Assembly (NCBI GenBank): GCA_025057595.1
Contig: JANXBK010000012.1
Location: 1-45,031, forward strand
Direction of reading: 5' to 3'
From: Thermodesulfovibrio sp.
GTDB lineage: Bacteria; Nitrospirota; Thermodesulfovibrionia; Thermodesulfovibrionales; Thermodesulfovibrionaceae
Length of the DNA stretch: 45,031 nucleotides
The notes under the pieces were generated by a model. The model made no database searches and had not been told where the DNA came from. It saw nothing but the letters and a program-made list of their open reading frames with translations. Made by a program: the position numbers and the translations under genes. How positions within the stretch are numbered: the stretch's first letter is position 1; each line of letters starts with the position of its first letter. Of this stretch, positions 8,571 to 42,025 are shown in pieces.

Positions 8571-10526
8571 ATGCGAGAATTGAAGGGTTTATGGAGGCTA
8601 ATTCTCAATTTATTAGTAGCTCTTTGGGGAGTATTTATTATTTATACAGCATTACTTCACGCCCTGCATCCTCTTTTGCAGGGCGGAATATCTCTTTCAG
8701 TAGGACTTGCTATTGTATTTCTTGTATATCCCTTCTCAAAAAGGATGCTTAAATGGAATATTCCGAAGTTTTTTCAGTTTCTCCTCACAGGAACAAAAAA
8801 CTCTCCCTCTTTTATTGATCTTATATTTATTGTAATTAGTCTTATACCATGTATCTATATAATGATTCATTGGGAGGAAATTGTAAGAAATCCAGGAGTT
8901 TTTGAAACTTATCATCTTGTATTAGCTACTCTTTTAATTGTAGCTTTAATTGAAGGAACAAGAAGATCTCTTGGATTAACTGTTCCTATTCTTGTCTTAT
9001 TTTTTATTGTCTACACAGTTGCAGGGCCTCATATTCCAGGCAGATTTGGACATCCTGGATTTAACCTTACAGATATCCTCTATCAACTATACTTAATGAC
9101 AGAGGGAATATGGGGACTTCTTACTGATATGGCAAGTAGAATAATTGCACCTTTTATAATCTTTGGTCCTATACTTTTTGCAACAGGTGTAGGCTCAACA
9201 GTTATGGAGCTTTCAACATATCTTGGTGGAAAAATAAGAGGTGGGCCAGGACATGTAGCAGTAATCTCAAGCTCTCTTTTTGGTATGCTTAGTGGCTCCT
9301 CTGTAGCAAATGCCGCGACAACAGGTTCATTTACAATACCTCTTATGAAAAAATTCGGTTTCTCAAGAGAATTTGCCTCTGCAGTTGAAGCAGCAGCATC
9401 CTCTGGAGGACAAATTATGCCACCAATTATGGGAGCAGGCTGCTTCATAATGGCTGAGTTTCTTAACATTCCCTATGCCCATATAATGATTGCAGGATTA
9501 ATACCAGCTGTGATATATTTCGCAGGTATTGCAGCAGGAGTTTGGATCGAAGCAGGAAGAACAGGAATGGGAAAGCTTCCTAAAGAATTAATGCCGGAAT
9601 TAAAAAGAGTTTTAAAACCGAGTAGAATTCTTAATTTTATCCTTCCCATAGGTACTCTTGGTGTATTACTATTTATGTTTTTCCCTGCACAGATATGTGC
9701 TGCATGGGCAATTGTTGTATCTGTAGTCTACTTTACATTTTTTGGAGGACCGCTCAAAGGTAAAGAGATCTGGAACAGAATAAAAGCAATCTGGGGAGGA
9801 CTTTTTGAAGGAGTTGTGAAAGCACTTGCATGGCTTATGATAATGATGGCATGTGTACAGATTGCAGTTAGCCTAATATCTCTTACAGGTTTTGGGGTAA
9901 AGGTATCAGAACTAATTATAGAAATCTCTGGTTACAATGTCTATCTCGCACTCATCGCCACAATGCTTACTGCAATAATTCTTGGAATGGGAATGACAAC
10001 AACCGCAGCATATGTTATTGCTGCCGCAGTTTTAGTTCCTGCCTTACAGCAAATGGGAGTTAATCCTCTTGCTGCTCATTTATTTATTTTTTACTTTGCT
10101 ATCAAATCTGGTTTAACACCACCTGTGTGCATAACTGTTTATACAACTACTGCAATAGCAGGAGGAAACTGGATTAAAGCTGCCTGGAACTCAATGAAAC
10201 TTGGAATCGGTGGATATATAATGCCTTTCTTCTTTATTTTTGTCCCAGCCTACTTAATGAAAGGTTCTGCATTAGAAATATTATTCATATTCATTGGAGC
10301 CTTTATTGCGATGTTTGCTATTGAAGCTGGAGTATTAGGCTACTGGACAAAACCAGCAACACCTTTAGAAAGAATTTTTTATATAACTGGCGGATTACTT
10401 ATGATGGCACCCGGGTATTGGACATTTGTTGGAATAGCTATATTTTTAATCGGACTCATTTTAGAAAGATTTGATGTACAGATACCAATAATAGCAAAAA
10501 GACCAGTTCAAATCATGAGAAAATAG
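8571..10526 (+). CDS. TRAP transporter fused permease (DctQM type)
   Basis: A 651-residue integral membrane protein with about 15-18 hydrophobic helices. The first 130 or so residues correspond to the small four-helix DctQ subunit and the rest to the large DctM channel, the usual fused arrangement of TAXI systems. Family blocks include MLSGSSVANAATTGSFTIPL, EAAASSGGQIMPPIMGAG, and in the second half LGMGMTTTAAYVIAAA and KSGLTPPVCITVYTTTAIAG, the two pseudo-symmetric ion and substrate loops. It takes up the solute delivered by the receptor using an ion gradient. The ATG lies 13 bases from AGGAGG, a rather long gap with no better start. A strong hairpin terminator overlaps its stop codon. Confidence 0.9.
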   Translation: MRELKGLWRLILNLLVALWGVFIIYTALLHALHPLLQGGISLSVGLAIVFLVYPFSKRMLKWNIPKFFQFLLTGTKNSPSFIDLIFIVISLIPCIYIMIHWEEIVRNPGVFETYHLVLATLLIVALIEGTRRSLGLTVPILVLFFIVYTVAGPHIPGRFGHPGFNLTDILYQLYLMTEGIWGLLTDMASRIIAPFIIFGPILFATGVGSTVMELSTYLGGKIRGGPGHVAVISSSLFGMLSGSSVANAATTGSFTIPLMKKFGFSREFASAVEAAASSGGQIMPPIMGAGCFIMAEFLNIPYAHIMIAGLIPAVIYFAGIAAGVWIEAGRTGMGKLPKELMPELKRVLKPSRILNFILPIGTLGVLLFMFFPAQICAAWAIVVSVVYFTFFGGPLKGKEIWNRIKAIWGGLFEGVVKALAWLMIMMACVQIAVSLISLTGFGVKVSELIIEISGYNVYLALIATMLTAIILGMGMTTTAAYVIAAAVLVPALQQMGVNPLAAHLFIFYFAIKSGLTPPVCITVYTTTAIAGGNWIKAAWNSMKLGIGGYIMPFFFIFVPAYLMKGSALEILFIFIGAFIAMFAIEAGVLGYWTKPATPLERIFYITGGLLMMAPGYWTFVGIAIFLIGLILERFDVQIPIIAKRPVQIMRK

Positions 10527-10553
10527 CCTCAGGAACTACCTGAGGCTTTTATT
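10526..10553 (+). terminator. Rho-independent terminator of the TRAP operon
   Basis: GCCTCAGG (10526-10533), loop AACTA, CCTGAGGC (10539-10546), then TTTTATTTTTTT. The stem is perfect over 8 pairs and starts at the last base of the permease stop codon. The left arm contains the stop codon of the convergent hydrolase gene, whose last five codons also lie in the structure. On the minus strand the hairpin is followed by only a broken T-run, so it works mainly for the plus strand. Confidence 0.85.
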
Positions 10554-11131
10554 TTTTTAATTTCTTCAAAACCAATCCAATGTGGCTTTTTAACAACATA
10601 TGTCTTAGCAAATGGGTAGGTATCCTTTAAATCTTCTAAGGCTTTTATTGGCAATATTTTATCATATAATCCTTGAATAAAAACAAGATTATCTACTTTA
10701 TGATTTGTATTTATAACCTCAGAAAAAATAAGAAACTCAAGTCCATCAATTAGCTTTTGATAGTTTATTTGCTGTGGAAAACACTGACTACATCCAGCAT
10801 TGATAAGAAAATTTTTTAAAACAATCTCTGGGTCTGTTTTTATTTTTTGAATCATTTTTTTTATAAGTTTTGAATCTATATAGTTTGTAAATTTTTTAAA
10901 ACCTGCAATAATTATCATCTCTTTAAATCTCTCAGAGAAAAAACCAAGATTCTTTAAAATAATATGTCCACCTGTGGACCAGCCAACTACAATCTCACCT
11001 GATTTGTTTTCTAAAAAATCTAAAATTCCTTTCTCATTAAAATCAATAAATGGATTAATGAAATACCACTCTTCAGGTATATCTCCTAAAGCCTCTTTAA
11101 AGCCTGCCCAACCTGAGATAAAAAGTTTCAC
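10529..11131 (-). CDS. Small alpha/beta hydrolase
   Basis: A 200-residue protein with the core of an alpha/beta hydrolase. The nucleophile elbow is GWSTGG (Ser52), the acid is likely Asp157 in GLYDKILP, and the base is His184 in KKPHWIGF, so the Ser-Asp-His triad is complete and in order. There is no signal peptide. It starts with GTG sharing one base with the stop codon of the UspA gene (TAGTG) and is the third gene of the LCIB-like operon. It resembles the short BioG/BioH-type esterases that release pimeloyl chains, and bioF is in the same window, but bioF is 9 kb away on another transcript; the substrate is unknown. Its 3' end lies inside the TRAP terminator. Confidence 0.7.
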   Translation of the reverse strand: MKLFISGWAGFKEALGDIPEEWYFINPFIDFNEKGILDFLENKSGEIVVGWSTGGHIILKNLGFFSERFKEMIIIAGFKKFTNYIDSKLIKKMIQKIKTDPEIVLKNFLINAGCSQCFPQQINYQKLIDGLEFLIFSEVINTNHKVDNLVFIQGLYDKILPIKALEDLKDTYPFAKTYVVKKPHWIGFEEIKKIKASGSS

Positions 11132-12069
11132 TACTGATTAATAATAGCTACAGTTTGCTCAAAACAGTGATTCAAAACTGCTGCGCTTACACTACCAAAC
11201 ACTAGATCTTTAATAGCTGAACGTCCTTTTCTTCCCATTATAACAAGATCATACCCGAATTCTTGTATCTCTCTGATAATCTCTTCCTTTGGAAAACCAA
11301 CTTTACTTTTTGTTTCAATCAAATCTAAGGATACTCCCGTATTTATAAATCTTCTTTTTGCATCCATTAAAATCTCTTCTGCCTCTGTCTCTGGATCAAT
11401 TCCTTGTTTAGTTCTCTCAAGATAATGTGATACATTTATTACTCTTAAAATCACTATCTTTTCTAAAGCTTTAAGATATTTTGCCAAAAACACGCCATGT
11501 TCAACTGCTTTCATAGAGTACTCTGAACCATCAACAGGAATAAGGATACGATAAATTAAACTGTCTTCTTTTTGTCCAATTAGATATATATTCTTATTTA
11601 GAAGCCCATAAAGAACCTTTTCAGAAACACTACCAAAAATTATCTTTCTAAATTTTGTCATGGCTCTCCGTGCCATCATCACGGTATTTACATTCTCTTT
11701 TTCTGCTATTTCTATTATTTTATTTCCTGGATCTCCTATCTCTACAATATTTCTAACATTACTCAATGAAAATTTATCAGTTATTTCTGTCTTATATCTA
11801 TCAAGAAATGGTATTATAAAATTTTTAGTATACTCTTGAATAATTTTATCAGCGAACTCTCTGTCCTGAAGCATCATTGCTCTGAAGTCTATATTTTTCA
11901 GTTTTTCAGTAATTTCATCAAAAGTAACTATATTAAGAAGAATAAGCTCAATATCTCTTTCATAAAGAGAATTTATTAAAGAACCGACAAATTTAACTGC
12001 TTTTTTTGAATTTTTAGTCTTATCAACAGGAAGGAGTATTTTTTTAAAACAGTTTTCATAATATCTCAA
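11131..12069 (-). CDS. Tandem universal stress protein (two UspA domains)
   Basis: A 312-residue cytosolic protein made of two UspA domains (about 1-155 and 165-312). The second ends in MGRKGRSAIKDLVFGSVS, an exact G-x2-G-x9-G-S ATP-binding motif; the first has the degenerate ARRAMTKFRKIIFGSVS, so probably only one half binds nucleotide. The reading frame begins with TTG at 12069, overlapping the LCIB-like gene by 14 bases; no in-frame ATG is better placed. UspA proteins sense stress or energy state through ATP or AMP. Its position between a candidate carbonic anhydrase and a hydrolase, just after the Mrp operon, hints at control of ion or carbon balance, which is inference. Confidence 0.85.
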   Translation of the reverse strand: MRYYENCFKKILLPVDKTKNSKKAVKFVGSLINSLYERDIELILLNIVTFDEITEKLKNIDFRAMMLQDREFADKIIQEYTKNFIIPFLDRYKTEITDKFSLSNVRNIVEIGDPGNKIIEIAEKENVNTVMMARRAMTKFRKIIFGSVSEKVLYGLLNKNIYLIGQKEDSLIYRILIPVDGSEYSMKAVEHGVFLAKYLKALEKIVILRVINVSHYLERTKQGIDPETEAEEILMDAKRRFINTGVSLDLIETKSKVGFPKEEIIREIQEFGYDLVIMGRKGRSAIKDLVFGSVSAAVLNHCFEQTVAIINQ

Positions 12070-12754
12070 TTTTTCTTATCTCCGCCTCTTCGAAAACAAT
12101 AAATTCCTCAGGTATTATGTAATTTCTGTTGAGATAATGAACTTGAATGCCTGAAATCAGAGCATACTCAATTTTGTCTGATTTAACGAATCCTTGCATG
12201 AGAGATTCAATATCTTTTACTGTGGCTCTTAAAGATATTTTAGTTAATTCCAAAAGATTTGGAAGGTTGCTAAGATTTATCTCTGAAAGAAGTCTTTTTT
12301 TAAGGTAATTCTGTTCCTCATCAGCTACATCAGAATAACTCACTGTTTTTTTTGAAAGTTCATTGAGAAAAAAAATTAAAGCTCCACAGGCATTTGAATC
12401 AATAATTCCTTTTCTACTGCATTTACCTAATATACCGTTTTCATCAACTCCTATGTGGGAAAATACATAAAAAACACATCTTCTTGCTCCATTAAAATCT
12501 GGAGCATGACTGAGAAAAGCTTTAAGTCCTGTGATACCAGCTGTATAAAGTCCACCAAGACTTGAAAAATTAAAAACTTCACCCCAAATGTTTTTTATCT
12601 GAACTAAAGCAGTTTGACAGAGTTCATCTCTACATAAACATGCTGAAGCAATAGAGTTAGCAGAAGTAAAATTGTACTTCTTCAAAATATCATAAGTGCT
12701 ATTAATAAAAGCTGTCTCTTCCAAGTATCTACCAAAAATCTCTTTAACAACCAT
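12056..12754 (-). CDS. LCIB/LCIC-like protein, candidate beta-type carbonic anhydrase
   Basis: A 232-residue soluble protein. Three blocks resemble the LCIB/LCIC family, a divergent branch of the beta-carbonic anhydrase fold known from algal CO2 concentration: CLCRDELCQ (Cys41, Asp43), FSSLGGLYTAGITGLKAFLSH, and FSHIGVDENGILGKCSRKG followed by SNACGALI (His100, Cys123). Cys41, His100 and Cys123 could bind zinc. If the family pattern is Cys-x-Asp-Glu-x-x-Arg, the Arg is Gln47 here, which would break the Asp-Arg pair and question catalysis. The recognition is from memory and the match is partial. The gene begins its own transcription unit with an extended -10 only 8 bases from the ATG and overlaps the UspA gene by 14 bases. 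The Mrp operon ends 37 bases upstream. Confidence 0.5.
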   Translation of the reverse strand: MVVKEIFGRYLEETAFINSTYDILKKYNFTSANSIASACLCRDELCQTALVQIKNIWGEVFNFSSLGGLYTAGITGLKAFLSHAPDFNGARRCVFYVFSHIGVDENGILGKCSRKGIIDSNACGALIFFLNELSKKTVSYSDVADEEQNYLKKRLLSEINLSNLPNLLELTKISLRATVKDIESLMQGFVKSDKIEYALISGIQVHYLNRNYIIPEEFIVFEEAEIRKIEIL

Positions 12755-12762
12755 GACATTTA

Positions 12763-12771
12763 ATTATAACA
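12763..12771 (-). promoter_or_regulatory. Extended -10 of the LCIB-like operon
   Basis: On the minus strand TGTTATAAT (12771-12763) is an exact extended -10 (TG-N-TATAAT). Eight bases separate it from the ATG at 12754 and no Shine-Dalgarno is present, so the transcript probably starts at or within two bases of the start codon. No good -35 is visible, as usual for extended -10 promoters. Confidence 0.6.
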
Positions 12772-12791
12772 TATCTTGGCTTTTCATCATC

Positions 12792-14588
12792 CTACGCTAA
12801 TGAGTAATAGATAATTAGATAAACAAGCAGAAAGAAAATTGCCCATAATACCAAAATTCCTAATGGCATAGGAGCATTAGGATCACCTGGATACATCTTT
12901 TTTTCTGCTTTAAGTCTTTCTCTGATTTCTTCTCTCTTTTCCGGAATAGAAAATGCAAGTAATAAGGAGTCTCTTATAATTTTTATCGCTAAAATCGGAT
13001 TTTTTACTAACCAACCTAAAAATGTTGGAATTTTATCAAAAACAACTCTATTAATTGCTGAGCTTACAGTAGCACCAGGTTTATTTATAAACCATATAAA
13101 AATCTCTGCACCTTTTCGATAGAGCCAGTCTGTATCGAGATTTATAGCTCTAATTTCGGAAGGATAAAGCCCTGAAAGTAAGAGTAAGATAAATGCTAAA
13201 GCAGAAAAACAAAGCAACTGCAGATGATCAACTACATGCGTAGCTGTATAAGGTATATAATCTACAGAATAAGGTAGAATACTATATAGTGGATCTGGAA
13301 ATACACCAATACTAATACAGAAAAAAGCCGCGATACCCATAGCTAAAAGCATATTAACAGGAGGCTCTTTTGTTCTTATACCTGAGTCGCGACAGAAGAA
13401 GGCAAAATATGGAATTTTGATACCTGAGTGATGAAAAACACCTGCAGAGGCAAAGAGTAATCCGAACCAAGTAATTGCCATTCCCTCAACTGCTGCAGCA
13501 GAGACAATCATGGATTTACTTACAAAACCACTCGTAAGAGGAAATCCTGATATAGATGCAGCTCCTATGATGCAAAAAACTGTGGTAAGAGGCATTGTTT
13601 TGTAAAGTCCTCCTAAATCTGTAGCATTTATTTTGCCTGTCTGATGTAAAACTGCTCCCATAGACATAAAAAGTAATGCCTTATATAGAATATGACAGAA
13701 TGCATGAGCAACTGCGCCATTTATAGACAAAGCAGTTCCTATTCCAACTCCTGTAACCATAAATCCTACTTGATTTATCAAACTGTAAGAGAGGACTCTT
13801 CTTAGATTATTTTCAATAACAGCATAAAATATAGGAAAAGCAGTCATTACAACTCCAATCCATATCAAAATTTCACTGCCTGCAAAAGCACGAGTCAAGA
13901 CATACACTGCGGTCTTAGTTGTAAAAGCACTTAAAAAAACTGTACCTGAAAAGGTAGACTCTGGATAAGCATCAGGTAGCCACGCATGTAGTATGGGAAA
14001 TGCTGCATTTACTCCAAAACCAATTAGTATAAAATATGAGCCAACACTATTTAGTCCAACATATCTAAATTCAGAAGAACCTGTACTGTGCAGATACATC
14101 ATAATTCCTATGAGAAGACATAAACCACCAAAGAGATGAACAGCAAGATATCTCATTCCTGCTTTATAGGAGTTTTTAGTTTTCCCTGTCCATATAAGAT
14201 AGGTTGCGGCAAGAGCCATAATTTCCCAGAATATAAAGAGTGTGATAAAATCTCCAGCAAAAACAGCTCCTAAAGCACTTCCTGAATAAATCATAGCTGC
14301 AACATGTTGAGAATCATCCCTAACATGAAGAGCATATAAATTACCAATAAATGTAACTATTGCAAAAATATAGCCAAAAGCAAGACTTAATTTATCAATC
14401 TTAAGTAAGACCAATTCGTAGTTCAAAAAATATATAATCCAGTAAGTTCCCTCTTTAAGAAGTAAAATATTTATAAAAGTAGCAACAGGAATAAGTAGAA
14501 GATAAGCTAATTTTAAACTGCCTCTAATAAAAGGAATTAGACACGCACCTAAAATAAGAATAAAGAAAGGAGGGATTGGCTCAATCAT
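12792..14588 (-). CDS. Mrp/Mbh-type antiporter subunit, third ND5/MrpD-like protein with C-terminal extension
   Basis: A 598-residue membrane protein of the NuoL/NuoM/MrpD family. The proton-path acid is Glu122 (FIFWEIMALAATYLIW), Lys225 lies in SAFTTKTAVYVLTR, and Lys303 with His295/His299 in AVAHAFCHILYKALLF. In the broken helix before LHAWLPDAYPE the two sister subunits have Lys225, but here the equivalent residue is Asn194, as seems usual for the NAAFP-type subfamily. After residue 470 come INLDTDWLYRKG, a long amphipathic stretch and a final membrane helix, resembling the lateral arm of NuoL or MrpA. It overlaps the 85-residue gene by 8 bases and is the last gene of the Mrp operon. Confidence 0.85.
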   Translation of the reverse strand: MIEPIPPFFILILGACLIPFIRGSLKLAYLLLIPVATFINILLLKEGTYWIIYFLNYELVLLKIDKLSLAFGYIFAIVTFIGNLYALHVRDDSQHVAAMIYSGSALGAVFAGDFITLFIFWEIMALAATYLIWTGKTKNSYKAGMRYLAVHLFGGLCLLIGIMMYLHSTGSSEFRYVGLNSVGSYFILIGFGVNAAFPILHAWLPDAYPESTFSGTVFLSAFTTKTAVYVLTRAFAGSEILIWIGVVMTAFPIFYAVIENNLRRVLSYSLINQVGFMVTGVGIGTALSINGAVAHAFCHILYKALLFMSMGAVLHQTGKINATDLGGLYKTMPLTTVFCIIGAASISGFPLTSGFVSKSMIVSAAAVEGMAITWFGLLFASAGVFHHSGIKIPYFAFFCRDSGIRTKEPPVNMLLAMGIAAFFCISIGVFPDPLYSILPYSVDYIPYTATHVVDHLQLLCFSALAFILLLLSGLYPSEIRAINLDTDWLYRKGAEIFIWFINKPGATVSSAINRVVFDKIPTFLGWLVKNPILAIKIIRDSLLLAFSIPEKREEIRERLKAEKKMYPGDPNAPMPLGILVLWAIFFLLVYLIIYYSLA

Positions 14589-14838
14589 AATAGTTTTCTT
14601 TCCTTTTTACGATTGGTCTAAGTATATGTTTTGCCACTAATACTAGGAAAACACAGGCTACAAATCCAAAAGCTCCGTAGAAGGAATAAAACTCTTCCCA
14701 CTTAAAGTGGGGATGCTTAGGAATTAAAAAATCTAAAATAATCAATATTATCAGAAAAAGATAGAAATATAGAATTAATTTATTTACATTTCTTGGATTG
14801 TCAAAAAAATATCTTTTTTTATCTTTATGTCTTCCCAT
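14581..14838 (-). CDS. Small two-helix membrane protein of the Mrp operon
   Basis: An 85-residue protein with a basic N-terminus (GRHKDKKRYFFDNPRNVNK), a hydrophobic helix at about 21-40, a short loop with HPHFKWEEFYSFYGAFGF and a second helix at about 52-70. I do not recognise a named family. An AAAGGAG site lies within the end of the upstream 43-residue gene, and the downstream antiporter gene overlaps by 8 bases, so it is clearly part of the operon. A structural role at the interface of the third ND5-like subunit is a guess. Confidence 0.7.
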   Translation of the reverse strand: MGRHKDKKRYFFDNPRNVNKLILYFYLFLIILIILDFLIPKHPHFKWEEFYSFYGAFGFVACVFLVLVAKHILRPIVKRKENYYD

Positions 14839-14844
14839 TATTTT

Positions 14845-14976
14845 TCAAACTCCTTTAAATATTATATAAGCAAGATAGAAACCTAAAATGGCAAGCACTA
14901 TATAGAATACTTTTCTATAACCTGGTTTAGGCTTATGTTTTAGTTCAACTGTCTTGTAATAGGACTCTCTTTTCAT
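14845..14976 (-). CDS. Very small single-helix membrane protein (43 residues)
   Basis: ATG at 14976 to TGA at 14845 encodes 43 residues: a basic, Tyr-rich head (MKRESYYKTVELKHKPKPGY) and one hydrophobic helix of about 17 residues (VFYIVLAILGFYLAYII), ending FKGV. The ATG follows the stop codon of the second MrpD-like gene without a gap, and GGAGG stands 7 bases before it. It fills almost all of the 138-base gap between its neighbours. Signal, spacing and composition support a real gene, probably an accessory subunit. I know no named family for it. Confidence 0.65.
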   Translation of the reverse strand: MKRESYYKTVELKHKPKPGYRKVFYIVLAILGFYLAYIIFKGV

Positions 14977-16476
14977 TTAGTTGCCTCCTTTCACACCAAA
15001 TACAATAATTTTTATAATCTCAAGAAAAAAGAAAGGATAGAAAAACATTAAAACGGTTGCTATCGCAGTAAGTATTAAGGGAAATAGCACAAATATGGGA
15101 GCCTCTCTTATTTCTCTTTTATTATCTCCAAAGGAAATGTGGTATTTTTGTTTTTTCATGAAAGCTGCATATACAATTGGCATAAAATAACAAGCATTAA
15201 GAATTGTACTTACTGCCAAAACTCCCAAAACAAAAAGTTGTTTTGCTTCTAATGCTCCAAAAATAAGATACCATTTACTAATAAATCCTGCAAGAGGCGG
15301 AACGCCAATCATTGACAAAGCAGCCAGTGTAAATGATGCCATTGTAAAAGGCATTTGCCTTCCTATCCCATCAAGCTCACTCACTTTTGTCTTATGAGTT
15401 ACTACATATATCGCTCCTGCTGTAAAAAAGAGTGTAATCTTACCAAAAGCATGAGTTACAATATGCATTATACTTCCTGTAATACTTGAAGGAGTAAGAA
15501 GAGCAACTCCGACAACTATATAGGAAAGTTGGCTTACTGTCGAATAAGCAAGCCTTAGTTTCAGATCATCTTGTCTAAGCGCAATAACTGATGCAGCAAT
15601 TATAGTAAAAGAGGCTACTAATGCAAGAACTAATCCTAAGTTATAAGTTTTAAGAAGCTCTGAACCAAAAATATAGAGAACTACTCTTATTACCATAAAT
15701 ACTCCTGCTTTTACAACAGCTACTGCATGAAGTAAGGCACTTACAGGTGTTGGCGCAACCATTGCAGCAGGAAGCCAACTATGAAGAGGCATTATAGCTG
15801 CTTTAGTGATTCCTGCGATATAAAGAAAGAAAATGATCGTTATTAACTCATAAGAGATATCTTTGTTAAAGACTCCATGAGAAGAAAAATTAAGATTTCC
15901 GGTGATACTGTAAGTTATAACAATAGCTGTAAGTTGAAAGGCTATTGATGTACCAAGCAAGTAAGTTAAGTATTTCCTTGCTCCCTTTTTTGCTTCCTCA
16001 GTTTCTTTGTGGGCAACAAGAGGAAAGGTGGAGACAGTTATGATTTCATAAAATACAAAGGCAGTGAACATATTAGCTGAGAAAGCCACACCAACAGTAG
16101 CAGAAAGAGCGATTGCAAAGTAGAAAAAATAACGAGTCTGTGCATGTTCATTAAGACCTCGCATATAGCCGATAGAATAAAAAGATGTAATAATCCATAG
16201 AAAAGATGCTGTTAAGGCAAAAAAAATACCTAAACCATCTACCTTAAACTTTATTATAAGCTCAGGAGTTATTTTAATTAATGTGTATTCAATTACTTTA
16301 CCATTTAGAATATCTGGTAACATCGAAGCTACTATTGAAAATTTAGCTAAAGATGTAAAAATAGACCATGCCTCCCTCAGATTTCTTGCTTTTTCTCCTG
16401 TGATAGCTATAAGTAGAGCTCCTAATGTAGAGACTGCTACTGCTAATAAAGGTTTTAGTGAAATCAGCGTTTCCAT
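14977..16476 (-). CDS. Mrp/Mbh-type antiporter subunit D (second copy)
   Basis: A 499-residue, 14-helix ND4/MrpD-like subunit. Glu144 in FVFYEIITVSTFPLV, Lys225 in AGITKAAIMPLHSWLP and Lys256 in LLHAVAVVKAGVF are the residues that form the proton path in NuoM and MrpD. All are in place, so it should be competent for ion translocation. It begins 2 bases after the first MrpD-like gene and is followed directly by the 43-residue gene. With its sister it shares the Glu144/Lys225/Lys256 numbering, pointing to an old duplication. Confidence 0.87.
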   Translation of the reverse strand: METLISLKPLLAVAVSTLGALLIAITGEKARNLREAWSIFTSLAKFSIVASMLPDILNGKVIEYTLIKITPELIIKFKVDGLGIFFALTASFLWIITSFYSIGYMRGLNEHAQTRYFFYFAIALSATVGVAFSANMFTAFVFYEIITVSTFPLVAHKETEEAKKGARKYLTYLLGTSIAFQLTAIVITYSITGNLNFSSHGVFNKDISYELITIIFFLYIAGITKAAIMPLHSWLPAAMVAPTPVSALLHAVAVVKAGVFMVIRVVLYIFGSELLKTYNLGLVLALVASFTIIAASVIALRQDDLKLRLAYSTVSQLSYIVVGVALLTPSSITGSIMHIVTHAFGKITLFFTAGAIYVVTHKTKVSELDGIGRQMPFTMASFTLAALSMIGVPPLAGFISKWYLIFGALEAKQLFVLGVLAVSTILNACYFMPIVYAAFMKKQKYHISFGDNKREIREAPIFVLFPLILTAIATVLMFFYPFFFLEIIKIIVFGVKGGN

Positions 16477-16478
16477 GT

Positions 16479-17960
16479 TTAAAATCCCTCTGGAACAGTA
16501 AACCTAATTAATGAAGAAATTATTCTTCCGCTGTAAAAGCCAATTATAAGAATTGTTAAAGCCATTATAGTTATAGGAATTATCATACTTAAAGGTAATT
16601 CTCTAAAATTATGTTTTGGTATTACTTCCTTTTTAGAAAAGTAAATTTTTTCAAGAAGCTTAAAAAATATAAAGGCATTTACTAAACTACTAAAAACTAA
16701 AGCAGCTACAGAAATCCACTGTTCTGCTTTAGTAGCACCTAAAATTAAGTACCACTTACTGAAAAAACCTCCAGTAGGAGGAATACCTATCATAGATAAT
16801 GCTGCTACAGTGAAAGCTGCCATAGTAATTGGCATGCTTTTGCCAAGTCCTTTAAAATCCTCCAAATTTCTTGAGCCAACTCTATAAAAGATCCCTCCTG
16901 CAATCATAAAAAGACATGCTATCATTATAGCGTCATTAAGTATATGTAAGACAGCACCTATAAATCCCTCTTTGTTACATAAACTAATACCAAGAACCAT
17001 ATAACCAACTTCTGCTATCAGTATGTAAGAAAGAGTTCTTTTAAAATCTGTCTGACCAATAGCAATTATGCTTCCAAAAAAAATAGCTACAGTTGCCCAC
17101 CAAATAAGAATGTTAGAAAGAGGTGTTATATCCGTTAAAAATCTAGGTTCAAAAAGTGTAAAGAAAATCCTAATCAAAACATATATGCCAACCTTACTCA
17201 TAGTTGCTGAGGCAAATGCGCTAACTGCGGAGGGAGCAAAAGTATATGAATCGGGAAGCCACCTATGCAGTGGGAAAAGAGCTATTTTTATTGCAATACC
17301 AACTACTACAAATGCTAATGCAGCGAGAGTAACCTTTGACTCATATAAGGAAGGAAGTAGTCGGCTAAGATCTGTGATATTGAGGGAGCCTGTAATGATA
17401 TAGATGTAACCTACTCCTAATAAATAAAAACAAGCTCCTACTGTTCCCATAATTATATAATTAAAACTTGCAAGAACTGATCGCCTCTCACCAATTGCTA
17501 TTAATGCATAACCTGCAAGTGAAGCTATCTCAAGGAATACATAGAGATTAAATATATCTCCGGTAATTGTTATGCCCAATAATCCTGTTACAAAAAGTAA
17601 ATAAGTAGAGTAGAAATAGGGTAGTCGTGCTTTTGTCAACTCCTTTTTTATACTCTCTTTAGAATATATGGCTATAATAAAACTGATTATAGAAATAATA
17701 ATAATCAAAAAAGCATTGAGATGATCTACAGTATATTCAATTCCCCAAGGAGGAGTCCATCCGCCAAGTTTATATCTTATAGTTCCAGAAGTAGTAACAA
17801 CAGATAGAATGTCAATAGAAAGAAGAGAGCACAATCCTAAGATGCCTACAAAGAAAGGATAACACAACGACCTTTTTAATAAACTTATAAATATATTAAC
17901 AATTGAAGCAATTAAGGGGGTAACAACAATTAAAATTGAGGAATGCTCCCATAGATTCAT
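16479..17960 (-). CDS. mrpD: Mrp/Mbh-type antiporter subunit D (first copy)
   Basis: A 493-residue, 14-helix ND5/MrpD-like membrane protein. The key residues are Glu144 (NLYVFLEIASLAGYALI), Lys225 (VGIAIKIALFPLHRWLPDSY) and Lys256 (ASATMSKVGIYVLIR). It overlaps mrpC by 4 bases and directly follows the BC part of the operon, the usual place of MrpD, so this copy is the best candidate for MrpD proper. The complex exchanges Na+ (or K+) for H+ at the inner membrane. Confidence 0.88.
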   Translation of the reverse strand: MNLWEHSSILIVVTPLIASIVNIFISLLKRSLCYPFFVGILGLCSLLSIDILSVVTTSGTIRYKLGGWTPPWGIEYTVDHLNAFLIIIISIISFIIAIYSKESIKKELTKARLPYFYSTYLLFVTGLLGITITGDIFNLYVFLEIASLAGYALIAIGERRSVLASFNYIIMGTVGACFYLLGVGYIYIITGSLNITDLSRLLPSLYESKVTLAALAFVVVGIAIKIALFPLHRWLPDSYTFAPSAVSAFASATMSKVGIYVLIRIFFTLFEPRFLTDITPLSNILIWWATVAIFFGSIIAIGQTDFKRTLSYILIAEVGYMVLGISLCNKEGFIGAVLHILNDAIMIACLFMIAGGIFYRVGSRNLEDFKGLGKSMPITMAAFTVAALSMIGIPPTGGFFSKWYLILGATKAEQWISVAALVFSSLVNAFIFFKLLEKIYFSKKEVIPKHNFRELPLSMIIPITIMALTILIIGFYSGRIISSLIRFTVPEGF

Positions 17961-18328
17961 TTTTTCTTTAATATTTCAATTATTTCATCTTCATCAAGAG
18001 TTTTATACTGGTTATAAAGCATCATAATAATAGCTAAGGCAACACCGAAGGTACTTACCATTACAACTATCGCAGTAAGCATCAAAACGTGTGGTAAAGG
18101 ATTTATATATTGTGATGGATTTATAACCTCCTGAGATTTTATTAAAATAGGTATCGTAGCATCCCTTTTATAAGCTATAGATATAAAAAACAGTATTATA
18201 GCAGTCTGAAAAATGTTCATTCCTACCACTTTTTTTACAAGATTTCTTTTAGCTATCATTGCATAAAAGCCAATCATCATTAGTGCTATATAAATCCAGT
18301 AATTATACTTACCGATAATTGTCTCCAT
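17957..18328 (-). CDS. mrpC: Mrp antiporter subunit C (NuoK-like)
   Basis: A 123-residue protein with three membrane helices, homologous to NuoK. Helix 2 region MIAKRNLVKKVVGMNIFQTA and helix 3 region PHVLMLTAIVVMVSTFGVAL are family blocks (LTAIVV being most typical). I start it at the ATG at 18328, which has GAGGTG 10 bases upstream and follows the mrpB stop by one base; an in-frame ATG at 18367 would add 13 residues inside mrpB and lacks a site. The C-terminus is charged and cytosolic. Confidence 0.88.
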   Translation of the reverse strand: METIIGKYNYWIYIALMMIGFYAMIAKRNLVKKVVGMNIFQTAIILFFISIAYKRDATIPILIKSQEVINPSQYINPLPHVLMLTAIVVMVSTFGVALAIIMMLYNQYKTLDEDEIIEILKKK

Positions 18329-18329
18329 A

Positions 18330-18785
18330 TTAAACTTCACCTCTTTCGTGTTTACCAAAAGTTGCAAGGTTGAGAAAAATAGAGACCATCACTGCCATAA
18401 CTGTAATACCAACACTTATCTCAATTCCAAGAGTTGCAAGAGCACGAACTTTAACTGGATCGGCAGGCAAAACTTTATGTAGAATGCCGTAATTAAGATA
18501 TTCAGCTCCCAAAATTATACAAATAAGTCCAACAAAAGCATAAATAAAAACACCAAAAGCAATCATAAATATATTCGTGTACTCAGAAAATCTTTTTTTC
18601 ATCCATTTTATATCATAGGCAATCACCATTAGTATAAATGATGCACCTAAAATACAGCCTCCCTGAAAACCTCCTCCAGGACTATAATGTCCATGAGTAA
18701 TAACATAAAGAGCAAAAAGTTGAATAAAAGGAATCATAATTCGGCAAACTGTTTGTATTATGAGATCGTCATACAGTCTTATCAT
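18330..18785 (-). CDS. mrpB: Mrp antiporter subunit B
   Basis: A 151-residue, four-helix protein with the MrpB signature ITHGHYSPGGGFQGGCILGA. That block and the following hydrophobic helices are characteristic of MnhB/MrpB and MbhF. The ATG at 18785 has GAGGAG 8 bases before it; a TTG at 18791 is less likely. It overlaps the end of the upstream MbhE-like gene by 17 bases, with an ATG inside the last codons of that gene, so translation is coupled. Confidence 0.88.
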   Translation of the reverse strand: MIRLYDDLIIQTVCRIMIPFIQLFALYVITHGHYSPGGGFQGGCILGASFILMVIAYDIKWMKKRFSEYTNIFMIAFGVFIYAFVGLICIILGAEYLNYGILHKVLPADPVKVRALATLGIEISVGITVMAVMVSIFLNLATFGKHERGEV

Positions 18786-19053
18786 CTTCAAATCTCCTCA
18801 AAAGTAAAATACATACAACCGCGGCTGTAAATATAACTGTTGTCTCTCCTAAAGTATCATATCCTCTGTAGTCTGCGAGAACTGAAGTAACCGCATTTGG
18901 AGTAGCTGTTTCCTCTAAGGTTTTCTCAATATAACGAGGTGATACATGTAGACTTGCCGGAGAGTTAGGATCTCCCCAGTTTGGCATCTCAAGAGTGCTG
19001 TAGATGAGTGTGGCACCCGTCATTATAACTATTATCAAAGCAAAAAGTTTCAA
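18769..19053 (-). CDS. MbhE-like subunit (C-terminal MrpA segment)
   Basis: A 94-residue protein with an N-terminal helix and a second helix near the C-terminus. Between them lie NAVTSVLADYRGYDTLGETT, the block found at the very C-terminus of MrpA and in MbhE of membrane hydrogenases. So the MrpA tail is a separate gene here. It overlaps the DUF4040 gene by 4 bases and mrpB by 17. Confidence 0.8.
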   Translation of the reverse strand: MKLFALIIVIMTGATLIYSTLEMPNWGDPNSPASLHVSPRYIEKTLEETATPNAVTSVLADYRGYDTLGETTVIFTAAVVCILLLRRFEDDKTV

Positions 19054-19295
19054 TCTTTTGTCCTCCTTGTTGTCTGATAGATAGCACCTATAAAAAATGC
19101 CGTGCTAATCCCAGCTCCTACTGCAGCTTCAGTAAATGCCACATCAACCGCACCCATTTCTGCCCAAAGAATACACATAAGAAAGCTATATGCACCTAAA
19201 AGTATAGCAGAACTCAGCAAATCTTTTACATGTATTGCTCCTACAGCACATATAAGAAGAATAGTTAGTATTAGTAGTTCAGTAATCCATATCAT
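19050..19295 (-). CDS. MbhD-like DUF4040 subunit (MrpA segment)
   Basis: An 81-residue, three-helix protein with GAVDVAFTEAAVGAGISTAF, the hallmark of DUF4040 (MbhD and the C-terminal region of MrpA, NuoJ-like). It precedes the MbhE-like gene with a 4-base ATGA overlap, and together they replace the C-terminal third of a full MrpA. The ND5-like part of MrpA is absent at this position. Confidence 0.82.
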   Translation of the reverse strand: MIWITELLILTILLICAVGAIHVKDLLSSAILLGAYSFLMCILWAEMGAVDVAFTEAAVGAGISTAFFIGAIYQTTRRTKD

Positions 19296-19639
19296 CTTTC
19301 TAAATCCTCCTTTCTTAAAGGAATTACACCACTGTCTAATCCTGCCTTTGTTATAGCATGAGTGGCTGTAGGATTAGCAAGAAATATAAAGAAAATAATA
19401 AAGAGAAGTTTTAGGGAAACAAGTATTGTACTAAAGGAAAAATCCTCCTTAAGTATATAAATCACTATTCCTAATAGAGTTAAAATTGCACCAAGAGTAT
19501 CTCCTTTACCCGTTGCTTGAAGTTTACAGTAAAAATCAGGGAACCTTAGAAGTCCAACAGTTGCTGTAAAGAAAAAGAATAAGCCTATTCCTACTATAAC
19601 ACCTACAATAATATTTAAAGCAAAATCAAAGTTTATCAT
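19292..19639 (-). CDS. mrpG: Mrp antiporter subunit G
   Basis: A 115-residue protein with three membrane helices and the MrpG/MnhG block VGLLRFPDFYCKLQATGKGDTLG. After the third helix comes NPTATHAITKAGLDSGVIP, which matches the family C-terminus (N-P-x-A-x-H-x-I-x-R/K-A). It overlaps mrpF and the DUF4040 gene by 4 bases each. No residue looks missing. Confidence 0.9.
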   Translation of the reverse strand: MINFDFALNIIVGVIVGIGLFFFFTATVGLLRFPDFYCKLQATGKGDTLGAILTLLGIVIYILKEDFSFSTILVSLKLLFIIFFIFLANPTATHAITKAGLDSGVIPLRKEDLER

Positions 19640-19944
19640 TTGCTTTCCTCCCTGTCTTTTAAAAATTTAGTTCCTGGCACAATACTTTTTCTTACTCTGA
19701 AAAACTTAGAAGCTGCTAATGTAGCTATAAAGTTAAGAAGGGCATAAGCAAGGGAGATATCAACAAACATCTCTACTCTTTTGTAATAAATTCCTAATAA
19801 GATAAGAATCAACGTAGTTTTGGTTCCAATAACTCCCACTGCTGCTATTCTATCCATAATTGTTGGACCAAATACTGCACGATAAAGACATAAAATGACC
19901 ATAATTATAAGAATTATTATTGTTAAAAGAAAGAAGTTTTCCAT
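19636..19944 (-). CDS. mrpF: Mrp antiporter subunit F
   Basis: A 102-residue protein with three helices and the family block LYRAVFGPTIMDRIAAVGVIG, followed by VDISLAYALLNFIATLAASKF. I start at the ATG at 19944, where AAGGAG stands 6 bases upstream and the mrpE stop lies two bases away. A longer frame to 20022 would sit entirely inside mrpE and adds 26 unrelated residues. Confidence 0.9.
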   Translation of the reverse strand: MENFFLLTIIILIIMVILCLYRAVFGPTIMDRIAAVGVIGTKTTLILILLGIYYKRVEMFVDISLAYALLNFIATLAASKFFRVRKSIVPGTKFLKDREESK

Positions 19945-19945
19945 C

Positions 19946-20443
19946 TTAACTCCTTTCAATATTTTCACCAAATATCCTACCAACCTTTTTTTCCATCTCT
20001 CCTGTAAGTAGGTCATCTGCAACTTTCTGGCTTATACAATGTATTACGAAAATATTATCCTTTGTAATATCCATTGTAATTGTTCCGGGTGTTAGAGTTA
20101 TTGAGTGAGCAAAGACAACCTTTGATATGTCTTTTTTTAATTTAGCTTTGTATTCAAGCACAAAGGGTTGTATTGGCATTTTTGGATGCAACGCTAGGTA
20201 GGCAACATGAATATTTGCAAGAATTATTTGATAAAATAGCCAAGGAATATATTTTATAAATCTTATTCCATCCCTAATATGAGACTTTGTGAATTTCTCA
20301 CTCTTGAAAATTAAATCTCCAGAGATCAATGTAATTATTAAACAAGAGATAACACCAAGAGCTAAATGAAAGACATCAAACATTCCTGAAAAAATACACC
20401 ATAGACTAAAAAGTATAAGGAAAGTAACTACTTTTTTATTCAT
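19946..20443 (-). CDS. mrpE: Mrp antiporter subunit E
   Basis: A 165-residue protein with two to three N-terminal helices and a cytosolic C-terminal domain holding the MrpE signature FAHSITLTPGTITMDI. It is the first gene of the Mrp operon (E-F-G-DUF4040-MbhE-B-C-D-D-small-small-D), the same order as the ion-translocating module of Mbh and Mbs complexes. AGGAGG stands 6-7 bases before the ATG. The 99 bases upstream contain several AT-rich -10-like hexamers but no convincing -35. Confidence 0.9.
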   Translation of the reverse strand: MNKKVVTFLILFSLWCIFSGMFDVFHLALGVISCLIITLISGDLIFKSEKFTKSHIRDGIRFIKYIPWLFYQIILANIHVAYLALHPKMPIQPFVLEYKAKLKKDISKVVFAHSITLTPGTITMDITKDNIFVIHCISQKVADDLLTGEMEKKVGRIFGENIERS

Positions 20444-20542: not shown

Positions 20543-21052
20543 TTAATAAAAATTTGACCGATTTTTTAACAGTTCCTCCGAGATTACATCAAATACTTCA
20601 ATTATTCTTACTAATCCTAAAAGTTTCTTCTTTTCCCTAATCACAGGCAATACAGCTAGATCGTAACTAATCATTAAGTAAGCAGCTTTTATAACAGGAT
20701 CTGAGGGCTCAACAAAATGTTTTGCAGGAACCATTATTTCACTTACAGGTTTGTGGATGATTTTTTTTATCTCTTGACTAAAAAAACTGTCCCAAACCAT
20801 GGGTTCCTCTTTATTGATTTCTATTGGCAAAGAGAGTTTCAGTTTCTTTAAAACATCTCTTGGTGTTACTGTTCCTAAAAGATTATACTTTTCATCAAAA
20901 ACAAGTACTACGAGAGGCTCTGTGTATTTTTGAGTTTGAATAAAGAAAGCCTTGATTACTTTAATAACCTGCTCAATATTAAACCAATAAGGAATATGTG
21001 GATATTCAAATATTTCAAACATTATATCTTTTACGAATTTTTTGTTTGACAT
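20543..21052 (-). CDS. CBS-domain pair protein
   Basis: A 169-residue cytosolic protein consisting of two CBS domains (about 5-75 and 95-165). The first has VVLVFDEKYNLLGTVTPRDV and the second IMVPAKHFVEPSDPVIKAAY with LAVLPVIREKKKLLGLVRI. CBS pairs bind adenine nucleotides and act as energy sensors. GGAGGT lies 5-6 bases before the ATG. It is upstream of mrpE in the same direction with a 99-base gap, so it may be cotranscribed with, or regulate, the antiporter; that link is inferred from position only. Confidence 0.82.
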   Translation of the reverse strand: MSNKKFVKDIMFEIFEYPHIPYWFNIEQVIKVIKAFFIQTQKYTEPLVVLVFDEKYNLLGTVTPRDVLKKLKLSLPIEINKEEPMVWDSFFSQEIKKIIHKPVSEIMVPAKHFVEPSDPVIKAAYLMISYDLAVLPVIREKKKLLGLVRIIEVFDVISEELLKNRSNFY

Positions 21053-40468: not shown

Positions 40469-42025
40469 TTAAAGTAACTTAGCTGGATAATAATCTCCAT
40501 GTCCAGGCAAGATAAGTAATCCTTTATTACTTTTCTTAAGTTTTTCATTTATCTCTTTACTAAGCTCTGTAAGAAGTTGCATTTCTTTGCGAAATATTCT
40601 TGAATCAGCATTTGTGCTTGTTATTAAAAACTTTGGGATATTCAATAAACTCTTTTCTTCCTCATTAAGACTTGGTATATAAAGAAGATAATCTGCTGTA
40701 AAAAATAAACCAGCAGATTCAGACAAAAAGAATACTTGCCCAGGAATATGACCACCAAGGCTTTCAATTACTTTGAATGTAAGATTACCAATATCAAAGG
40801 AGTCAATTACTGTAAAATCTTTTATTTTTTCATTAAACCGATTTTCAAAGGATTTTAAGTTTTTTGGAAATTTGCATTGTGTGAAAGTGTTTACTAAAAC
40901 TGTAAAATACTTATTTAACTCGGTTAAAGGTGTGTTTGCTCCAAAAGCACGATTTTCATTTTCTATTATTCCCTTTGAGTCCTTATGCATAAAAACTTCA
41001 GTACCAAATTCTTCCTCAAAGTATCCACTTAATCCTGCATGATCAGCATCTGCATGGGATATATATATTTTTTCGATTTTTGAAGGTTCTATTCCGTTTT
41101 CTTTAAGCATTTTTTTTACATCTTCATAATAAATTCCGTAGCTACCATCAATCATTATATAGGAACTATTTTGCTGAAATATATAAACATTTCCACCTGT
41201 AGGAAGCTTAAAGCAGTGAAGAAGTATATCCCCGAAAGGAAGAGGCGGAAGTTTCTTATAACAAAAGTTTTCTTTTATTTTTTTTGTTGAAGATATTGCA
41301 AAAGTAAGAATATTTCCAAATACTTCTCCTGCTTCAAGATTTTTACCTGCTTCTTTATTGAATTTTATCAAAGTTTCAGATAAATATTTTGAAGTATTAA
41401 CAAGTTTTTTTAAGTTATCAATTTCTTGCTCATTTAATATTCTACGAAGCTTGAAGAAAAACCTCTCCATGAGATTAAGCCCGATAATTCTGTTTGTTTT
41501 TTCTTCATCTGTTCCTGAATACTCAAGACTGTAATGATATCCTTCTTCATTCATTTTTTGAAGTAAATTTTTAATCTGTTCAGTATCTTTCACATAAAAA
41601 GCAATATCTGCTTTATTTTCTGAAATTAGCTCGTTATATATCATGTAAATAACATTTGCATCAAAACTTTTAAGTATCCATGCAAATTTTGCGAGGCTAC
41701 CAGGTTTATTTTCAAGATATACTGATATTTTAAGAATGTTATTTATGTTTGTAATTTGTAAATCTTCTTCATAAATCTCGTCAAAGTATCCTTCTTTAGT
41801 GAGATTTTTATAAAGCGTAATAAATGCCTCTTTTTTACTACATTTTCCTTCTATTAAAACTCTGTTTGGATGCTCAGACCGATTGTAATAAAAGTAGATT
41901 ATGTTAATTTGATTTTGTGCAAACACACTTGCTATTTTTGCAAGAGAGCCCGGTTTATCTGGAATAAAAATCTTTGTTTTACATATAAAAGATTCTTTTT
42001 CAAGTAATTGCCAGAGCTGAAACAT
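40469..42025 (-). CDS. ACT-ACT-metallo-beta-lactamase fusion protein
   Basis: A 518-residue soluble protein. Residues about 14-85 (KTKIFIPDKPGSLAKIASVF) and 95-170 (KISVYLENKPGSLAKFAWIL) are two ACT domains with the D/N-K-P-G-S-L-A ligand turn. Residues about 255-518 are a metallo-beta-lactamase-fold hydrolase: metal motif H-A-D-A-D-H (324-329), then ESLGGHIPGQVFF, FTADYLL and the terminal LILPGHGDYY. The usual H-x-H-x-D-H is H-x-D-x-D-H here, which occurs in several MBL subfamilies. ACT domains suggest an amino acid-controlled hydrolase or dioxygen/thiol enzyme; the substrate is unknown. A TTGACA promoter lies right before the ATG with no Shine-Dalgarno, so the mRNA is likely leaderless. Confidence 0.85.
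   Translation of the reverse strand: MFQLWQLLEKESFICKTKIFIPDKPGSLAKIASVFAQNQINIIYFYYNRSEHPNRVLIEGKCSKKEAFITLYKNLTKEGYFDEIYEEDLQITNINNILKISVYLENKPGSLAKFAWILKSFDANVIYMIYNELISENKADIAFYVKDTEQIKNLLQKMNEEGYHYSLEYSGTDEEKTNRIIGLNLMERFFFKLRRILNEQEIDNLKKLVNTSKYLSETLIKFNKEAGKNLEAGEVFGNILTFAISSTKKIKENFCYKKLPPLPFGDILLHCFKLPTGGNVYIFQQNSSYIMIDGSYGIYYEDVKKMLKENGIEPSKIEKIYISHADADHAGLSGYFEEEFGTEVFMHKDSKGIIENENRAFGANTPLTELNKYFTVLVNTFTQCKFPKNLKSFENRFNEKIKDFTVIDSFDIGNLTFKVIESLGGHIPGQVFFLSESAGLFFTADYLLYIPSLNEEEKSLLNIPKFLITSTNADSRIFRKEMQLLTELSKEINEKLKKSNKGLLILPGHGDYYPAKLL

Follow-up and report, generated by a model that had tools for sequence, protein, structure and literature searches.

LCIB and LCIC of Chlamydomonas (CrLCIB and CrLCIC; PF18599) look like carbonic anhydrases yet are reported to have no carbonic anhydrase activity in vitro (PMC8825250, citing Jin 2016), and this discrepancy is still an open question. 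That paper also describes CrLCIB as required for CO2 uptake in vivo, reports that algal LCIB and LCIC interact with the bestrophin BST3, and notes that PtLCIB4 was mutated (S47R) and crystallized. PtLCIB3 and PtLCIB4 are reported to be active (PMC9614477). In the DAB1 and DAB2 systems (DabA-DabB), a protein with a carbonic anhydrase fold is encoded next to an ND5-family membrane protein; DabA (PF10070) itself has a beta-carbonic anhydrase fold with a degenerate site and low basal activity, and DabB2 lacks antiporter ion-pair motifs (PMC13144422). There is also precedent for Mrp antiporter genes being clustered with inorganic-carbon genes, in "Candidatus Nitrospira alkalitolerans" and Aphanothece, in which the partner is the bicarbonate importer BicA, a Na+/HCO3- symporter (PMC7784846).

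The stretch of DNA analyzed here (45,031 nucleotides of Thermodesulfovibrio sp. contig JANXBK010000012.1, assembly GCA_025057595.1; referred to below as the window) likewise has Mrp genes clustered with an inorganic-carbon gene, but the partner is a carbonic-anhydrase-like protein of the LCIB type. The features of the locus are as follows.

10525..10547, no strand: bidirectional terminator closing the Mrp-LCIB operon and the convergent TRAP operon
10529..11131, minus strand: small alpha/beta hydrolase with a GWSTGG elbow, BioH-like (weak; Abhydrolase_1 17.5 bits, below cut-off; bioH 24.6 bits)
11131..12069, minus strand: tandem universal stress protein (Usp) with two Usp domains (PF00582 134 bits, two stretches)
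12056..12754, minus strand: LCIB_C_CA family protein, 232 aa (PF18599, AlphaFold2 model, structure matches)
12792..14588, minus strand: third ND5-like subunit, ND5c, PRK12668 type (NF009310 742 bits; alignments)
14581..14838, minus strand: 85-aa membrane protein that accompanies ND5c in the Mrp loci seen
14839..14976, minus strand: putative 43-aa single-span membrane protein between ND5b and the 85-aa gene (translation)
14977..16476, minus strand: ND5-like subunit ND5b (PF00361 186 bits)
16479..17960, minus strand: MrpD-like ND5 subunit ND5a (PF00361 212.7 bits)
17957..18367, minus strand: MrpC-like subunit (open reading frame and synteny)
18330..18791, minus strand: MrpB-like subunit (open reading frame and synteny)
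18769..19053, minus strand: MbhE-like subunit (PF20501 45 bits)
19050..19295, minus strand: DUF4040-like subunit (open reading frame and synteny)
19292..19639, minus strand: MrpG-like subunit (open reading frame and synteny)
19636..20022, minus strand: MrpF-like subunit, real start probably further in (open reading frame and synteny)
19946..20443, minus strand: MrpE subunit (PF01899 119 bits)
20543..21052, minus strand: CBS-domain protein, first gene of the operon (PF00571 43.7 bits; synteny)

The LCIB, Usp, and hydrolase genes were found on the minus strand exactly where the preliminary description had placed them, and the 37-base gap that it gave between LCIB and the upstream ND5c gene was also exact (12755-12791). 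The Usp gene overlaps LCIB by 14 bases. Approximately 16 genes are co-directional, in the order CBS, MrpE, F, G, DUF4040, MbhE, B, C, three ND5-like genes with two small membrane proteins, LCIB, Usp, and hydrolase, so that E, F, G, B, C, and D of a complete Mrp antiporter occur in one operon (MNHE, MbhE, and PF00361 were called by profile and F, G, B, and C by position and synteny). The interval between the ND5c and LCIB genes showed no terminator-like site. Thus, LCIB, the third gene from the end of the run that starts at the CBS gene (21052), is probably a late gene of the Mrp operon, carried on a single CBS-to-hydrolase transcript. The preliminary description was right about the neighbors of LCIB but not in making LCIB the head of an operon with them. 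Its Usp call was supported by two PF00582 domains, whereas its hydrolase call corresponded to a weak match below the cut-off. The hydrolase family is conserved in the genus; bioF is present in the same genome (128-1321), and the window hydrolase may have no connection with LCIB and be a pimeloyl-ACP esterase instead.

Membership of the window protein in the LCIB family, which the preliminary description had proposed, was confirmed by both profile search and structure comparison. The protein matched PF18599 only, over its full length (162.7 bits against a cut-off of 25; profile positions 5-221 of 223). A whole-genome search detected a single copy in the window genome (E value, 4.8e-48), and the same search detected none in 14 control genomes. 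The AlphaFold2 model (pLDDT 91.8) matched six LCIB-family entries in all, including PtLCIB4, CrLCIB, 6kfs, and CrLCIC with Z scores of 25-26 (26 for PtLCIB4 and CrLCIB), compared to 11-13 for classical beta-carbonic anhydrases. Unlike the Chlamydomonas proteins, to which it is ∼30% identical, the window LCIB is bacterial, is encoded in a transporter operon, and has no chloroplast or pyrenoid context, and a gene for an LCIC partner was not found. PF00484 beta-carbonic anhydrases were not found in any of the 12 genomes of the genus that were searched, and LCIB would therefore be the sole beta-type carbonic anhydrase detected in the genus. No plasmid-borne relatives were found, and a scan of GTDB contigs with the single LCIB protein, in which the pattern method itself was limiting, returned only one relative.

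Residues C41, D43, H83, H100, R114, and C123 were invariant in 48 of 48 homologues, CrLCIB, CrLCIC, and 9vzj included. By analogy with the beta-carbonic anhydrase pattern, C41, H100, and C123 are putative zinc ligands. R114 is a candidate partner of Asp43. At the sequence level, the window protein retains the conserved Cys/Asp...His...Cys metal site (C41, D43, H100, and C123). Metal-site residues and fold are shared with PtLCIB4 and other active diatom-type LCIBs, as is H83 (H88 in PtLCIB4). The preliminary description had regarded Gln47 as a missing arginine that might indicate a binding rather than a catalytic role. However, position 47 is occupied by Q, T, L, H, R, or C among the homologues and is also Gln in CrLCIB and CrLCIC; Gln47 therefore says little, and its interpretation as a lost catalytic Arg was rejected. 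Arg42 is the more informative residue with respect to activity. Active LCIBs of the PtLCIB4 type have a small residue after the first metal Cys, whereas the window protein has Arg, as do CrLCIB and CrLCIC. This position is Ser in PtLCIB4 (Ser47, the residue changed in S47R), Cys in 9vzj, and Ser, Cys, or Ala in active diatom-type LCIBs, which often have Arg at position 47. Arg42 was found in all of the Nitrospirota LCIBs compared except a bestrophin-linked pair with Ala (G110 and G297), the only proteins among the loci considered here that resemble the active diatom type at this position. The window site is thus of a type without demonstrated activity, and catalysis may be absent or conditional.

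LCIB neighborhoods were surveyed in 396 Nitrospirota genomes, one per species. PF18599 matched in 61 genomes, with ∼46 of the matches above 100 bits. The most common arrangement was GntR, CBS, DASS (PF00939), LCIB, and a CitMHS-family permease that was either NhaD-like (TIGR00775 378 bits; NF038006 over the cut-off) or MamN/ArsB-like. A gene of a cation/H+ antiporter family was located no more than two genes from LCIB in at least 31 of 48 Nitrospirota loci, which are related and phylogenetically non-independent (NhaD or MamN-like CitMHS, ∼20; Mrp, 8; CAX, 3). Chance adjacency would be rare because these families have few members per genome in the genus. A Mrp operon adjoins LCIB in five genomes of the genus (the window, L077, L074, L076, and L002, which is Thermodesulfovibrio sp. 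SKW4) and, in reverse order with MrpE next to LCIB, in three genomes of another family (L047, L058, and L063). Thus, the co-occurrence with Mrp, on which the preliminary description had staked its reading, extends beyond the window genome and the genus. In three Nitrospira-like genomes, a Ca2+/H+ exchanger gene directly precedes LCIB (L049:8489-10288, L050, and L053), and the one such exchanger that was scanned exceeded the cut-off for TIGR00378. L050 also has a second gene of the Na/Ca exchanger family upstream of this pair. A bestrophin gene (PF25539) overlaps the start of the Ala42-type LCIB of G110 (L033:8551-10367), a bacterial gene pair that recalls the algal partnership of LCIB/LCIC with BST3. 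The partnership looks like one of LCIB with a Na+-cycling transporter rather than specifically with ND5. No report of a linkage between LCIB and transporters was found in the literature searched, a body that excludes most subscription papers.

Within the genus, 4 of 12 genomes carried the Mrp marker MNHE, and these were precisely the ones in which LCIB adjoins ND5c; contig breaks split the Mrp-LCIB operon in two genomes, G096 and G207. Five Mrp-less genomes with LCIB have the arrangement DASS, LCIB, and MamN-like permease, and both LCIB and Mrp are absent from three genomes. A CBS homologue is the first gene of the DASS-LCIB operons as well, and an orthologue of the Usp gene lies immediately downstream of LCIB or is separated from it by one gene in the Mrp- and DASS-type loci alike. 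In the tree, every LCIB of the genus falls into a single clade (100/99), inside which the Mrp-linked proteins are nested (98/95). A single orthologous LCIB has thus kept its partnership with a transporter while the transporter itself was exchanged. The Mrp-linked LCIBs of the other family branch separately, so Mrp was recruited to LCIB at least twice. Between species, LCIB and CBS in the Mrp context are 45-64% and 42-63% identical, respectively, compared to 75-93% for most Mrp subunits; in the DASS context they are 68-91% and 85-93% identical. The rapid divergence in the Mrp context may reflect relaxation or adaptation, and the metal-site residues are unchanged even in these fast-diverging LCIBs. 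When the window was compared to L077 (G075), the block of 85-aa gene, ND5c, LCIB, Usp, and hydrolase (10529-14838) was 53-66% identical, versus 78-93% for the Mrp subunits upstream and 86-90% for the TRAP/malic enzyme genes beyond. In a separate case, the LCIB of G196 (L072:9693-10403) is only ∼69% identical to its DASS-linked congeners, and the DASS of that genome is 90-97% identical to theirs.

We consider it a reasonable working model, held with moderate confidence, that LCIB is a CO2/HCO3- converter in a Na+-cycling transport module that serves inorganic-carbon and pH homeostasis. The window protein would be a soluble, zinc-dependent protein of beta-carbonic anhydrase fold that converts CO2 to HCO3-/H+ and back in the cytoplasm beside a Na+/H+ antiporter, with which it may be in physical contact. 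What the data show is the family, the fold, the invariance of the metal-site residues, the recurrence of the linkage, and the exchange of partners around one orthologous LCIB; metal binding, catalysis, and HCO3- as the DASS substrate are proposed on that basis. In most relatives, the module would consist of a CBS sensor, DASS as a Na+-coupled anion importer, LCIB, and an NhaD/MamN-like exporter of Na+ or another cation; HCO3- entering with Na+ and H+ brought in by the antiporter could meet at LCIB to yield CO2, or, if the flux ran in the other direction, CO2 could be trapped as HCO3- while Na+ was recycled. In the lineage of the window, a complete Mrp antiporter would have replaced the permeases and LCIB would have become the distal part of its operon, supplying or consuming H+ and bicarbonate at the cytoplasmic side of the antiporter. 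The recurrent pairing of LCIB with sodium, calcium, and anion transporters suggests a shared CO2/pH-handling module, proposed here from sequence data. Arg42, as in the CrLCIB/LCIC type that is inactive in vitro, speaks against a converter, as does the presence of Mrp operons with ND5c in many genomes without LCIB. Furthermore, symport of HCO3- cannot be general, because G075, which is 99% complete, has Mrp-LCIB but no DASS.

The same Arg42, and the crystallized S47R variant of PtLCIB4 (PMC8825250), would also fit a non-catalytic sensor of CO2/HCO3- (or zinc) that regulates the antiporter together with the nucleotide-binding CBS and Usp proteins. The CBS and Usp genes that flank LCIB in both the Mrp and DASS arrangements, and the rapid divergence of LCIB relative to most Mrp subunits, are consistent with such a role. 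Nevertheless, a sensor has no obvious need for a complete beta-carbonic anhydrase site, and all of the residues taken to bind metal, together with the catalytic Asp and H83, are invariant even in the fast-evolving LCIBs. In vivo, CO2 uptake depends on CrLCIB (PMC8825250), which has these same residues. A sensor role seems unlikely but is a live alternative.

It is an equally live and equally unlikely alternative, in our estimation, that the linkage is incidental to inorganic carbon, with DASS/NhaD or Mrp serving sulfate or dicarboxylate uptake and Na+ balance while LCIB is a housekeeping carbonic anhydrase. This explanation draws on dsrA, for which each of the 28 class-level genomes with LCIB or DASS that were tested gave a match (26 over the cut-off, as in the window genome). 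Because the LCIB/DASS genomes are by this marker those of sulfate reducers, the LCIB-linked DASS could carry sulfate, and sulfate is a rival to bicarbonate, itself a hypothesis, as the substrate of these proteins; in sulfate-reducing organisms, DASS is one candidate for the carrier of sulfate (PMC5840216). Two genomes with DASS directly before Mrp but no detected LCIB, and the TRAP/malic enzyme operon that converges on the LCIB-side end of the window operon, point the same way. However, the two SNT-type substrate motifs of DASS Na+/dicarboxylate symporters are replaced in the LCIB-linked DASS: in every copy covering the motifs, AHT and MNV take the place of the SNT and SNV of VcINDY. The survey of Thermodesulfovibrio yellowstonii in PMC5840216 listed no DASS, with CysP and TSUP candidates instead, and LCIB lies beside CAX and bestrophin in the Nitrospira-like genomes G253 and G110, which lack convincing dsrA.

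DASS of the AHT/MNV type precedes LCIB at 25 loci and was found in 31 genomes (≥64% identity), 26 of which have an LCIB above 100 bits, compared to ∼3.6 expected. These proteins (L056:8167-9678 and orthologues) may represent a new substrate specificity, and their linkage to LCIB makes the subfamily a candidate for inorganic-carbon transport. In G207 and G096, a DASS gene is still located directly before MrpE, of a different subtype in G207; none was present at this position in the window genome or G075. Neither DASS nor CitMHS was found anywhere in the window genome (72% complete) or in G075.

The preliminary description had likened the locus to the DAB/DAC bicarbonate pumps, as an analogous but unrelated pairing. 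The shared trait is an ND5-family partner (PF00361) encoded next door, and "unrelated" was too strong given the beta-carbonic anhydrase fold of DabA, but otherwise the analogy is weak. In this locus, the ND5 partner is one part of an entire Mrp complex, and LCIB is not DabA. The LCIB model aligns over its full length with soluble LCIBs and lacks the transmembrane finger of DabA, a helical element that reaches into the ND5 subunit. ND5c retains E122, K225, K303, and K358, and the TM7 lysine of MrpD is replaced by N194 (alignments). Asn, Cys, Ser, or Thr occupied the TM7 position in all ND5c relatives examined, and the ND5c family occurred in 68 of 396 Nitrospirota genomes, most of which lack LCIB; this trait is thus independent of LCIB. 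A vectorial carbonic anhydrase in which LCIB docks on the ND5-like subunit and an ion gradient drives one-way CO2 hydration is quite improbable. In its favor are the adjacency of ND5c and LCIB in the genus, their joint divergence together with the 85-aa, Usp, and hydrolase genes, the loss of the TM7 lysine reminiscent of DabB2, and CrLCIB-type sites that may resemble the degenerate site of DabA. Against it are the family-wide nature of the TM7 change, an LCIB in the other family that adjoins MrpE rather than ND5c, the lack of a DabA (PF10070) match in the 72%-complete window genome, the lack of a transmembrane finger, and the pairing of the same LCIB clade with permeases unrelated to ND5.

Energy coupling of the DAB kind is possible, with no specific support. 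It would be a long shot that LCIB and a Mrp ND5-like subunit constitute a second machine, of independent origin, for one-way CO2 hydration driven by Na+ or H+, and that "inactive" LCIBs of the Arg42 type, the algal ones included, need an ion-transporting membrane partner for activity. Bacterial Arg42-type LCIBs beside Na+/H+ antiporters, a Ca2+/H+ exchanger, and atypical DASS nonetheless offer small systems in which a requirement for a membrane partner can be tested.

The window genome contains a second PRK12668-type ND5 gene (L093, G000:C11, 7010-13216), with equivalents in other genomes of the genus. Its interpretation as part of a second Mrp operon was rejected, as the cluster has no matches to Mrp E, F, G, B, or C and is found throughout the genus. 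The cluster, which includes three more ND5-like genes, might encode a variant of complex I that has additional proton-pumping subunits. Elsewhere in the window, the gene at 40469-42025 encodes an unusual pairing in one protein of N-terminal ACT domain(s) with a metallo-beta-lactamase (ODP-like) domain.
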